A DNA stretch of 59,077 nt from an uncultured Clostridiaceae bacterium (GTDB lineage: Bacteria; Bacillota; Clostridia; TANB77; CAG-508). Position numbers and translations under genes: made by a program. Numbering within the stretch: position 1 is the first letter of the stretch; every line of letters starts with the position of its first letter. The notes under the pieces were generated by a model, which was given only the letters and a program-made list of their open reading frames with translations, did no database searches and had not been told where the DNA came from. The stretch is taken from positions 1-59,077 of the forward strand of contig CAKNOI010000007.1 of NCBI GenBank assembly GCA_930990125.1, in the 5' to 3' direction. Shown here in pieces: positions 6,093 through 29,570 of this stretch.

Positions 6093-6356
6093 ACAAAAAA
6101 GCCATTCCTCCTAAAAGGACGAATGACTGTATGTTCGTGGTACCACCTTATTTTTTATTAATAGAAATTTCTATTAACCTCATTATTGCCTGGTAACGGT
6201 GGCTTATACCGTCTTTTTCTACTATTTTTTCAAAAAAGAACCAAAAAAGTGAAATTTCTATTAATACACTAGTATTGGCTCACAGCAATTTGCCAATTTC
6301 TCTTGCCTAGTTTGCGTATTTCTATACTTTGCTTTTTTATTGGTTTTTTTATTCTA
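6093..6356 (-). promoter_or_regulatory. T-box leader (tRNA-Phe) of pheST
   Basis: The minus strand carries the T-box signature AAGGTGGTACCACG (6136-6150). An overlapping terminator AGTCATTCGTCC/GGAGGAATGGCT plus T run occupies 6093-6128. The probable specifier TTC (Phe), followed by A, is at 6251-6253 in the stem I loop. The codon matches the downstream gene. Uncharged tRNA-Phe should favour antitermination. The exact 5' end is inferred from the promoter. Confidence 0.93.
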
Positions 6357-6401: not shown

Positions 6402-6548
6402 TCATTTTCGTAATATTTCAAATCGGTCAAATAATCCTAAAAGATAGACTATTGTAAATATTCTCTCGTTTTCTTTTAGAAGTTTTAATTCTTCTTTTTG
6501 AAATAATCTTTTGTATTTTTTTATTTGTCTTTTGTATCTTTTTTCCAT
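6402..6548 (-). CDS. Small basic protein, 48 aa, unknown
   Basis: A 48-codon frame starting MEKRYKRQIKKYKRLFQKEE and ending in a hydrophobic patch (FTIVYLLGLFDRFEILRK). A clear AGGAAAGGAG ribosome binding site precedes the ATG by about 7 nt. The N-terminal half is strongly basic and helical, with a leucine/aromatic tail, so it could be an amphipathic peptide. It lies between the pheS T-box promoter and the divergent candidate RNA at 6613-6690. No family is recognised, and it could be a chance frame despite the good binding site. Confidence 0.4.
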   Translation of the reverse strand: MEKRYKRQIKKYKRLFQKEELKLLKENERIFTIVYLLGLFDRFEILRK

Positions 6549-11795: not shown

Positions 11796-13511
11796 TTACT
11801 TACTCATTTCTTTTAAGGTAGTCCAAACTCCTGGTGTTTCTCTATCTTTTTCCCAAAAAGCTGAACCTGCAAGTTCATACTTTTCTATTAATCCTAATTT
11901 TTCCTTGATAGATTCTTCATCCTCAATCCACATTTTGTAGGTAGCATCTCCTTCGGTATACTCAATGTAATATTGTTTGGTATCTTCGTTCCAAACTTTT
12001 TCTACTCCTTCTGGAATGTAGTCTTCTACTTCATTCATAAAGATAACTGTAGGTGTTACTTCTCCATTTTCTTCTTTCCAAAGTCTTGTATATAGTGGCA
12101 TTGCTAAAATTAGTTTTTCTTTTGCTACACCTTCTTGTCCTAGGAATTTTTTTACATTTACTTCTACCCAATCATACCCTGCTACCGTTCCTGCTTCTGT
12201 AGAAGAAGCTCCATGTTGGTCATATGCCATAAATATTAAATAATCCGCTACATCGGCAAGTACGTTTCTATCATAACACAAAGACCAGTTTTCTCCTCCG
12301 TCTGGTGCTGTTACATCTACAGAAAGTACCATTCCAAGCTCTTTTAGTCTTGGTTCTAGTTCAATAATAAAGCGAGAAAATAAATCTTTATCTTCGGCAT
12401 TCATATTTTCAAAGTCAATATTTACACCATCTAGCTGGTATTCTACTAAAACATTTACAATATTATTAATTAAATTTTCACGTAATTTATAATCTTGCAT
12501 AATTTCTTCTGTGGTTTCGCGAAGAGAATTATTAGAAAGCATTGGCCATATTTTATATCCATTTTGATGTGCCCATTCAATATAAGCTTTTCCTTCTTCC
12601 CCTATGTTGGTATCTATTTCCCCTTGTCCGCTTCTTACCAAGGTAAAGAAAGATGGAGATACCACATTAATACCTTCTATCGTTTCGCCTGTTCTATCTG
12701 GTGCAGAAGCAACTTCTGAGTAATAATCCCATACTAAATTTACTTGTCCTTCTATCTGTTTTGAAAGAACAATATCGCTTCTAACTTCGGTGATATTATT
12801 TAATACCTTTGTTTTTACAAAACCAATATTACCATTTGCAGTACGAATTTTTGTCCAGTCGTCAAATTGTGCCACAATAATAACGCTATCTCCTTTTTTT
12901 AGTTTTTCTATTGTTCTGCAAAGACTTCTATCACGTGCTTTTACACTAGTATTACGGTTAATAAGTGCCCTGGTCAACTTTTTATCTAACGATTCTATTA
13001 CAATCGTATCATTTCCTTCTATATAAGTTACTTCTACATTGTATACATTTTCCATCTCTGAAAATGGCAAATACCATTTTCCGTCTTTTTCCATTACAGT
13101 ACCATTTATTTCTGTTTTGGCACTATTGACATACATTTCATTTTTCCCAACTTCTATACTAGCAATTTGTGTGCCAGAAGTGGTTATTACTTGCTGATAT
13201 TTTTCGTCAAAGTATAGGTGAGAATCAAAAAAGTTTTCTACATCTTCAAAGCTTAAATACCATACTCCCTTTTCGTCACGATACACATAAGTACCATTCT
13301 TTTGAAGCCTTTCAGTTACATTGCTATTGTTAATAACTAAATTGGTTCTATCTTTAATAGAAGTATCTTTGTAACCTGGCGCTAATTTTATTCCTGCAAA
13401 AACAACTCCTGCAATGATAAGCAGTAAAAAAATAAGTAATATTATTTTTACTGCTTTTGATTGCCATAGCCTTTTCTTCTGTTTTTCCTTTTTCTCTACT
13501 TTTTCTTTCAT
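11796..13511 (-). CDS. Membrane-anchored glycosyl hydrolase family 18 protein with SH3 domain
   Basis: 571 aa. One N-terminal membrane anchor (about residues 20-45) follows a Lys-rich cytoplasmic tip, so the rest should face outside. In order: a copper-amine-oxidase-N-like beta domain (about 60-180), a bacterial SH3 domain (about 185-245, RDRSLCRTIEKLKKGDSVII), and a GH18 TIM barrel (about 255-571). The GH18 catalytic motif DGVNIDFEN is intact, with the acid Glu in place, and YLIFMAYDQHG and LAMPLYTRLW complete the barrel signature. Relatives with this layout act on peptidoglycan or chitin-like glycans, some in spore cortex or coat. The substrate is inferred only. A TATAGT -10 box precedes the gene, but its -35 is poor. 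Confidence 0.88.
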   Translation of the reverse strand: MKEKVEKKEKQKKRLWQSKAVKIILLIFLLLIIAGVVFAGIKLAPGYKDTSIKDRTNLVINNSNVTERLQKNGTYVYRDEKGVWYLSFEDVENFFDSHLYFDEKYQQVITTSGTQIASIEVGKNEMYVNSAKTEINGTVMEKDGKWYLPFSEMENVYNVEVTYIEGNDTIVIESLDKKLTRALINRNTSVKARDRSLCRTIEKLKKGDSVIIVAQFDDWTKIRTANGNIGFVKTKVLNNITEVRSDIVLSKQIEGQVNLVWDYYSEVASAPDRTGETIEGINVVSPSFFTLVRSGQGEIDTNIGEEGKAYIEWAHQNGYKIWPMLSNNSLRETTEEIMQDYKLRENLINNIVNVLVEYQLDGVNIDFENMNAEDKDLFSRFIIELEPRLKELGMVLSVDVTAPDGGENWSLCYDRNVLADVADYLIFMAYDQHGASSTEAGTVAGYDWVEVNVKKFLGQEGVAKEKLILAMPLYTRLWKEENGEVTPTVIFMNEVEDYIPEGVEKVWNEDTKQYYIEYTEGDATYKMWIEDEESIKEKLGLIEKYELAGSAFWEKDRETPGVWTTLKEMSK

Positions 13512-13615
13512 GTTCTACCCCTTTTTCTTGTAATTTTTCATTTTCCTTACTATATCACAAAATACATAGTAAGGGAATAGTCTTTTACAAATATTAAAAA
13601 TATTTTTCTAAACCG

Positions 13616-13646
13616 AAAAGAGCCTAGCTTAAGTTTCTAGGCTCTT
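13616..13646 (-). terminator. Hairpin terminator-like element
   Basis: A 10-bp stem AAGAGCCTAG/CTAGGCTCTT with a 9-nt loop. On the minus strand TTTTCGGTTT follows. It would end a minus-strand transcript arising in 13650-14040, where no gene is evident. Confidence 0.55.
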
Positions 13647-14040
13647 CTATATGTTTTAGGGTAATCATCTATTTTTAAGACTTTTATGGGGTTTTACAAT
13701 TTTACTTTAATATTCGATAGGCATTCCTCCTTTTCTTATTTAAAATTCTATGCTAATTTTTTTATTTTCTGCAATTCATCTTCTTTCATTTCATTTATAT
13801 TATTTTATTTTATTTTCTATCACTCTCCTTCCCTTACGATGGTTTTATTTTACCGTTCCTTTATGTCCTTTTTGTGAATAGCACTCGTCTTTTTGGTAAA
13901 GAATTTCTTTAGTTTTTCTTAAGCTATTTTTTATGTTTTTATTTTTCTTGCCTTAACCTAAATTTTTTATTTATTTTTTGCTGTTTACATGCATTTTTCT
14001 CTTTACGTTTTTCCTATATTTTACAATTTTTTAGTTCTAA
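13647..14040. other. Gene-free AT-rich stretch
   Basis: No reading frame with start codon, binding site and acceptable length was found on either strand. The minus strand has isolated binding-site-like tracts (AAGGGAAGGAG near 13830, AAAAGGAGG near 13730) that lead only to tiny frames. A 28-nt segment at 13869-13896 resembles part of the RNase J leader at 33472-33499. An untranslated minus-strand RNA ending at the 13616-13646 hairpin is possible. Confidence 0.4.
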
Positions 14041-14043
14041 AAT

Positions 14044-14072
14044 TTGCATTTTTAGAATATATATGTTATAAT
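14044..14072 (+). promoter_or_regulatory. Promoter of the candidate structured RNA
   Basis: TTGCAT (14044-14049), 17-nt spacer, TATAAT (14067-14072). It predicts a transcript start near 14079. Confidence 0.8.
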
Positions 14073-14113
14073 GGAATATACACCAAAGAAATTTCAGAAA
14101 GGATGTAGACATT

Positions 14114-14299
14114 ATGTTAAAAGCAAATGAAAACATGATCAAATCGTTAAACGAACGGAGGAACTCCGAATCTGCCATAGGCTCCAACAAAAAGGGCTGC
14201 AAAGACAAAATCTTTTGCCGTCTGTACGGTGAAGGTCTTTGTAATGGCGATACGGAGTATTGCATGCTTCGTAAGGAGTCTTTCACTAGTGAACGATGA
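14114..14299 (+). CDS. Possible 61-aa Cys-containing small protein (alternative to the RNA call)
   Basis: Open frame starting MLKANENMIKSLNER, with cysteines at about residues 29, 35, 43 and 50. An AAAGGA tract lies about 11 nt before the ATG. Codon use is unlike the neighbours (CGG, AGG, TCC, GCC, GGC and CTG are frequent), and hairpins run through it. The frame may therefore be a by-product of a structured RNA. If it is real, it is a small protein of unknown function with a possible metal site. Confidence 0.35.
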   Translation: MLKANENMIKSLNERRNSESAIGSNKKGCKDKIFCRLYGEGLCNGDTEYCMLRKESFTSER

Positions 14300-14310
14300 G
14301 AGCATCCCAA

Positions 14311-14345
14311 AAAGAGAGGACCGAATTTGGTCCTCTCTTTTCTTT
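14311..14345. terminator. Bidirectional terminator between the candidate RNA and mnmA
   Basis: A 12-bp stem AAAGAGAGGACC/GGTCCTCTCTTT with loop GAATTT and T-rich flanks on both strands. It serves the plus-strand RNA and the convergent mnmA. Confidence 0.92.
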
Positions 14346-15404
14346 TTATTCTTCTTCTATTATTCCTCCACCTAACACAACATCTCCATCGTACAATACC
14401 GCAGATTGTCCTGGGGTAATGCTTTTTTGTGGCTCCGTTAGCAATACTTTTATTCTATTTTTAGAAAGCCATTCTATCTTACAGTCCGCTTCTTTAGCAC
14501 GGTATCGTATTTTTACTTGCATGGTACCCAAAGTTTCTATTTTTTCTTTTTCTACTAAAAGGTGTACATCTGAAACGGTAAAGCTACTTTTGTATAATTC
14601 TGTTTCCGTTCCTAATACTACCTTATTTTCCTTTTTCTTTAATGCAATCACATACAGTGGTTCTTTATACGAAATGCCAAGGCCTTTTCTTTGTCCTATG
14701 GTGTAATAGATAAGTCCTTTATGTTCTCCTAATTTTGTTCCATCTTTTAAAACAAAATCCCCTTTTTTTACTGTACCTATTCCATTTTTTCTTAAGAAGC
14801 ATCCATAGTCTCCGTCTGGTATAAAACAAATTTCCTGACTATCTTTTTTTTCTGCAACAGGAAGGTAGTTTTCTTTTGCTATTTCCCTTATTTCTTCTTT
14901 ACTTGTATATTCTTGCAATGGAAATACTAACATTGGTAGCACTTCTTTGGGAATAGCATATAAAAAATAGCTTTGGTCTTTGTTATTTGGTGCTTTTTGT
15001 AATACAACTTGGTTATATTTTTCTGAGTAACTTGTTCTTACATAATGACCTGTTGCTACATACTGGCATCCAAGTTCTTTTGCCTTTGCTAAAAATAAGC
15101 CAAATTTTAAATAGCGGTTACATTGTACACAAGGGTTTGGAGTTCTTGCTTCTTGATATTCTTGTATAAAATTTTGTACCACGTATTTATTAAATTCTTT
15201 TTCCAAATAAAGTGGATAAAATGGTATTTGCAAAGCATCACATACTTTTTTTGCATCTTCTAATGTATGGTTAGGGTGCTGTGTATCCTTCCACAGCTCC
15301 ATAGTAGCTCCTATTACTTCATATCCTTGCTGTTTCAGTAGCAGAGCAGAAACACTGCTGTCTACTCCTCCACTCATTCCTATTAAGACTTTCTTTTTTT
15401 CCAT
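14346..15404 (-). CDS. mnmA: tRNA-specific 2-thiouridylase MnmA
   Basis: 352 aa, normal length. It makes 2-thiouridine at wobble position 34 of tRNA-Lys, Glu and Gln using ATP and a persulfide sulfur. The N-terminal PP-loop SGGVDSSVSALLL (residues about 10-22) binds ATP. The catalytic cysteines are in NPCVQCN and DSQEICF, about 100 residues apart, as required. The C-terminal beta-barrel domains end with TPGQSAVLYDGDVVLGGG. It starts after the terminator that closes the aspS unit, so it is a separate transcript. Confidence 0.97.
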   Translation of the reverse strand: MEKKKVLIGMSGGVDSSVSALLLKQQGYEVIGATMELWKDTQHPNHTLEDAKKVCDALQIPFYPLYLEKEFNKYVVQNFIQEYQEARTPNPCVQCNRYLKFGLFLAKAKELGCQYVATGHYVRTSYSEKYNQVVLQKAPNNKDQSYFLYAIPKEVLPMLVFPLQEYTSKEEIREIAKENYLPVAEKKDSQEICFIPDGDYGCFLRKNGIGTVKKGDFVLKDGTKLGEHKGLIYYTIGQRKGLGISYKEPLYVIALKKKENKVVLGTETELYKSSFTVSDVHLLVEKEKIETLGTMQVKIRYRAKEADCKIEWLSKNRIKVLLTEPQKSITPGQSAVLYDGDVVLGGGIIEEE

Positions 15405-25114: not shown

Positions 25115-25366
25115 TTAGTTTGTGTGCTCCAGATGGTACTGGATGGATTGCGCAATTCGAAGGGATCTTTCGGTATTTAATGCTTCCATCGCCTCTAATA
25201 CAATTTCCCATTCATCTGGTCTGTACTCGTGAAAAATGTTGTCTACATATTCCTCTCTCTTTAGAAGCCTTGTAATTAGGTCGATAAACATTAATCTACT
25301 TGCTTTTCCCTCCAATAACTGCATAATTGCCTCAAAACTTGTCATTGAACCATTCCGATTTTCCAT
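25115..25366 (-). CDS. Small helical protein of unknown function
   Basis: 83 aa with an AGGAGG-type binding site and its own promoter at 25416-25445. It is predicted to be helical and acidic, with the patterns EAIMQLLEGKASRLMFIDLI and EWEIVLEAMEALNTERSLRI. It has no cysteine, membrane span or nucleotide motif. It ends just before the bidirectional terminator shared with the Tyr-rich gene. No family is recognised. Confidence 0.6.
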   Translation of the reverse strand: MENRNGSMTSFEAIMQLLEGKASRLMFIDLITRLLKREEYVDNIFHEYRPDEWEIVLEAMEALNTERSLRIAQSIQYHLEHTN

Positions 25367-29091: not shown

Positions 29092-29508
29092 ATGTCTAAA
29101 AGTAAAAGAGCACGGTTTGTTTTAAAGGACTATGATGCTGGAACTTTGTTAGCAAAAGAGTTTGGTGGTAACTACGACAAAGACTCTCAAATTTTAGTAG
29201 TACCATTAAATGGTTCGGAAAGCCACGATGATGACGTTAAAAGTGTTATCCGTCATTATGGCGGATTTCAGAGAGAACGCTATGTTCTCCACAATTCTGA
29301 AGCAGGCACTATACTAGCAGAACGTTATGAAGGTAGCTACGACCCAGAATCCCAAATTTTAGAGGTAACACTAACAGGTTCCTACTTCTACGATTTACGT
29401 ATAACCAAATCTATTAGTAATCATGGAGGATTTCCAGAATATGAACGTCCGGACATGAACAACCCTGAATATACAAAGTATATTCGCACAGGTTCTAAAA
29501 CCGAGTAA
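29092..29508 (+). CDS. Small protein built of two tandem repeats, unknown function
   Basis: 138 aa with TAGGGAGG upstream. Two repeats of about 53 residues make up most of it: residues 8-60 (RFVLKDYDAGTLLAKEFGGN ... IRHYGGF) and 63-115 (RYVLHNSEAGTILAERYEGS ... ISNHGGF). Shared positions include VL-AGT-LA, G-YD--SQIL-V-L-GS, and the closing HGGF/YGGF. A Pro/Asn-rich charged tail follows. No signal peptide, membrane span or known family is recognised. It has its own promoter, a double dyad and a strong terminator, so it is a separately regulated gene. Function unknown. Confidence 0.7.
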   Translation: MSKSKRARFVLKDYDAGTLLAKEFGGNYDKDSQILVVPLNGSESHDDDVKSVIRHYGGFQRERYVLHNSEAGTILAERYEGSYDPESQILEVTLTGSYFYDLRITKSISNHGGFPEYERPDMNNPEYTKYIRTGSKTE

Positions 29509-29532: not shown

Positions 29533-29570
29533 AAAAATACTCATCACTTTCTATGTGATGAGTATTTTTT
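29533..29570. terminator. Bidirectional terminator
   Basis: A 15-bp stem AAAAATACTCATCAC/GTGATGAGTATTTTT with a 7-nt loop between the convergent repeat-protein gene and the gltX-DUF951 unit. Confidence 0.93.

Follow-up and report, generated by a model that had tools for sequence, protein, structure and literature searches.

Fold-back control of translation is known from type I toxin mRNAs. Among 47 unknown intergenic regions with raised GC in one genome, about one in four held short coding regions (Stav et al. 2019; PMC6429828), and Friedman et al. estimated the share of annotated bacterial sRNAs that have a coding frame at about 10% (PMC5521070). The raiA motif RNA, also named ModT (RF03072), is present in more than 2,500 species (PMC11706538). 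We examined a locus in a 59,077-nucleotide stretch of DNA from an uncultured Clostridiaceae bacterium (hereafter the window), for which a preliminary description had proposed a structured non-coding RNA, possibly raiA. The explanation that we favour, and hold to be fairly probable, is a stand-alone gene for an orphan, lineage-restricted 61-residue protein with four cysteines, the mRNA of which is extra-folded.

Comparison with known RNA families

The covariance search of the locus against Rfam gave no match at the gathering score, and at E ≤ 10 it returned only terminator-driven or weak scores. This agreed with the earlier view that the locus matches none of 6S, SRP, RNase P and tmRNA. In particular, 6S RNA (RF00013) was not found at the locus, and the genome's own 6S lies on contig C43 (106 bits). 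The raiA proposal was not supported, since RF03072 gave no match to the locus at E ≤ 10 (gathering score, 101.3 bits); we also found no raiA in the host genome or in 20 relatives, in a search whose positive control also gave no signal. The weak scores of SR1, atoC and sraA were rejected as arising from the terminator, which in the case of SR1 was read on the other strand.

Transcription unit

The promoter matches 10 out of 12 consensus positions, carries TG ahead of the -10 element and was the top-scoring site, at a position that fits the unit, in a scan that overall showed no excess of promoter-like sites (3 compared to 4.2 in shuffles). Transcription would be expected to start at about position 14079. 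At the other end, the 14-pair terminator is one of 3 terminator-like sites, where 0.4 were expected. The sigma-A promoter, the strong terminator and, with both located, the self-contained transcription unit of the preliminary description were all recovered.

The gene mnmA (14346–15404, minus strand, identified with Pfam) is convergent with this unit and has its stop at 14346. The terminator is probably common to both genes, because it follows the stop of mnmA immediately and is flanked by T runs on either side. The other flank of the unit consists of ~570 AT-rich bases, followed by a GH18-type gene on the minus strand (11796–13511). A near-perfect hairpin, AGAGCCTAG / CTAGGCTCT, was observed at 13612–13655, within the long AT-rich stretch that lies upstream of the GH18 gene; the hairpin has T runs on its minus-strand side and is a possible terminator or attenuator.

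Table 1. Positions of the elements of the locus and of two further open frames in the window.
Feature	Position	Strand	Evidence or remark
Sigma-A type promoter, extended -10	14043–14072	+	TTTGCA-18-TATAAT; promoter scan
Shine-Dalgarno AGAAAGGATGT	14097–14107	+	Core GGATG(T) doubles as 5' arm of the predicted closing helix
Predicted folded body, closed by GGATGT / GCATCC	14101–14308	+	Single-sequence folding, prediction only
61-codon open frame, four cysteines (C-x5-C-x7-C-x6-C)	14114–14299	+	ORF, ribosome site, shuffle statistics
Intrinsic terminator, 14-pair stem	14310–14341	.	Terminator scan; T runs on both sides
83-aa frame, gene-like	25115–25366	-	Strong Shine-Dalgarno; CAI 0.45, GC3 41%
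138-aa frame	29092–29508	+	CAI 0.54, GC3 29%; departs less strongly from host usage

Open frame and ribosome site

The open frame is preceded by a Shine-Dalgarno sequence whose duplex with the 16S end (-11.6) is comparable to the host median (-11.2), at a normal spacing to the ATG at 14114. Only 1.5% of all ATGs have a Shine-Dalgarno as strong, so that the site of this frame beats 98.5% of them, and most of the window's other small frames that have an equally strong site are gene-like (e.g. GroES and a DUF951 protein). A frame of at least 61 codons combined with such a Shine-Dalgarno appeared in 3 out of 20,000 transcript shuffles (1.5e-4). The purine content at codon positions 1, 2 and 3 (64, 64 and 44%) is also coding-like. 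One mark of a small-protein (sORF) gene, a ribosome site with a frame beyond chance, is found here, and sequence and statistics alike show the signals for transcription as well as the frame and its ribosome site. The earlier suggestion that the sequence may be shaped by structure more than by coding is not supported, given this host-strength ribosome site and frame. Elsewhere in the window, a T-box leader was detected on the minus strand (6112–6349, 102 bits), adjoined by a 48-aa frame with a strong Shine-Dalgarno (6402–6548).

The encoded peptide would be charged and polar, with no hydrophobic stretch. It matched no Pfam, NCBIfam, PHROGs or PADLOC family and no solved structure. An AlphaFold model made with no alignment was of low confidence (mean pLDDT 63), and Foldseek with this model returned nothing at E below 1. 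The four cysteines would be compatible with a mini-domain that binds metal or is linked by disulfides.

Composition and codon usage

The GC content of 14101–14309 is 42.6%, compared to 31.6% in the whole window and 20% in 13900–14099, in agreement with the GC-rich island in AT-rich DNA described before. GC is raised to the same degree as in a known structured RNA, the genome's 6S RNA (41%). The codons are indeed foreign to the neighbouring genes, given that the GC3 of the frame is 49% while 234 host pieces of 61 codons have a mean of 19% and a maximum of 33%. The raised GC and the host-unlike codons can be cited for a structured RNA that is purely non-coding, belongs to an undescribed family restricted to the lineage and has an open frame by accident, an explanation that we consider improbable and that has to accommodate the rarity of such a frame and Shine-Dalgarno in shuffles. 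The foreign codons are no argument for an RNA, because the 83-aa frame of Table 1 and, to a lesser degree, the 138-aa frame share them. No Pfam or PHROGs family was found for the former and no family above the cut-off for the latter, beside which a strong hairpin followed by a T-rich tail was observed (~29540–29570).

Predicted RNA structure

The minimum-energy fold contains both end pairings of the preliminary description, the first extending to GGATGT (14101–14106) with GCATCC and the second being ATCGTT with AACGAT. It also has local hairpins, among them one near 14251–14273 in which 10 pairs enclose a UGC triloop. Compared to dinucleotide shuffles, the fold had a z of -5.8 with the terminator and -3.6 without it (-3.0 in a rerun), the energy of the body without the terminator being -62.4 kcal/mol versus -47.7 for the shuffles. 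The opposite strand of the body had a z of only -0.6. Against permutations that kept the protein and the codon usage, the transcript had a z of -3.1 and the frame one of -3.4, and none of the 500 was as stable. The same test on 160 host-gene pieces had a mean z of -0.57 (sd 1.10, minimum -3.06). Structure beyond chance is thus borne out, only slightly past the host-gene extreme; for a locus picked for looking structured, this is suggestive of an excess just outside the host range. The z of -3.6 without the terminator, the strand specificity and the greater stability than synonymous permutations support the purely non-coding RNA, and the small step past the host extreme counts against it.

The Shine-Dalgarno core overlaps GGATG, the 5' pairing arm of the preliminary description. 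In the full-length ensemble, pairing with the 3' end reached 94% or more for GGATGT, while pairing of the start codon, located in a hairpin, was 85–99%, as predicted from one sequence only, where helices spanning more than 200 bases are unreliable. The predicted fold would hide both elements, so that the RNA may have a dual function or exert fold-back control. In the corresponding rival explanation, a dual-function RNA or self-controlled mRNA would combine a translated frame with a selected fold that pairs the Shine-Dalgarno with the 3' end, as type I toxin mRNAs do. The pairing in the ensemble and the synonymous choices, which favour the fold, are consistent with it. However, the hydrophilic peptide is unlike the hydrophobic membrane peptides of type I toxins, and the antisense promoter is not convincing (on the other strand, where an antisense antitoxin would be transcribed, the only promoter-like site has 9 out of 12 matches, a chance level); we regard this rival as improbable.

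Search for relatives

Protein searches of 38 relatives and of genomes from the order (385), the class (391) and the phylum (398) found no credible relative; the collections of phages, plasmids, viral contigs and genome contigs gave none either. The weak matches were rejected, as they were out of frame or within other genes; one in the 398 phylum genomes had two stops inside. The degenerate cysteine-motif pattern was not found in viral contigs, and a 16-base exact pattern matched 4 viral contigs. At the DNA level, the matches in 195 family genomes were all short, and almost all of them lay in the AT-rich first part. A search of 117 genomes of the family and 341 of the class with a single-sequence covariance model of the predicted fold recovered only the locus itself and chance matches, which is a further point against a purely non-coding RNA. 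Two weak matches of this model were rejected as chance: the first covered the beginning of a frame resembling a phosphate-binding protein, and the second was a simple hairpin.

The neighbourhood downstream of mnmA was not conserved in 30 relatives, and that of the GH18 gene was not conserved in the genome-contig collection, where no congener was found. The genomes drawn comprised no other member of the host genus, and their nearest MnmA proteins were at most 59% identical; the absence elsewhere may for this reason correspond to a genus- or species-specific gene. As no relative was found in the genomes and collections searched, conservation could not decide between coding and RNA.

The foreign composition and the variable surroundings of mnmA would also suit a remnant of a mobile element in which neither RNA nor peptide is functional. 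We consider this highly improbable, as the promoter, ribosome site, frame and terminator are all intact and no phage, plasmid or viral-contig relative was found.

Discussion

We favour the coding explanation, in which the sigma-A promoter would start a monocistronic mRNA at ~14079, ribosomes would bind AGAAAGGATGT and translate the frame, and the terminator probably shared with convergent mnmA would end transcription. Translation may be restrained, as the predicted fold pairs the Shine-Dalgarno core with the 3' end and places the start codon in a hairpin. Should this fold also form in cells, translation could begin only during transcription or after unfolding. The gene is probably restricted to its lineage and either horizontally acquired or recently arisen. 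Against the coding explanation stand the lack of a homologue in the genomes and collections searched, by which selection on the protein might be seen, the host-unlike codons, a fold that beats 500 out of 500 synonymous permutations and a ribosome site hidden in that fold. The purely non-coding RNA, which the evidence supports only in part, is less likely than the coding explanation. It is also unlikely that the locus is a lineage-restricted dual-function RNA, that is, an mRNA for a new cysteine protein whose fold is a selected regulatory device or has an RNA function of its own.

As biology, an orphan gene within a small AT-rich Clostridia genome is an ordinary to mildly interesting case. It illustrates a common trap, in which GC-raised islands with a promoter, a terminator and predicted folds mimic new RNA classes and may be small-protein genes. 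The fold-back, if true, would make the transcript a compact self-controlled messenger.

Like raiA/ModT, the locus would give a structured transcript of about 200 nt that stands free in a Clostridia genome, but it has no covariance-model match and no relatives, and carries a frame with a strong ribosome site. With dual-function sRNAs and type I toxin mRNAs (SR1, Hok class) it shares a small frame and ends predicted to pair over the ribosome site, whereas its peptide is hydrophilic and cysteine-bearing and an antisense RNA is not evident. Finally, it differs from the sORF genes of Stav et al. in having no relatives and a predicted RNA structure beyond the terminator, and resembles them in its GC-raised intergenic unit with a ribosome site, a short frame and a terminator (PMC6429828).
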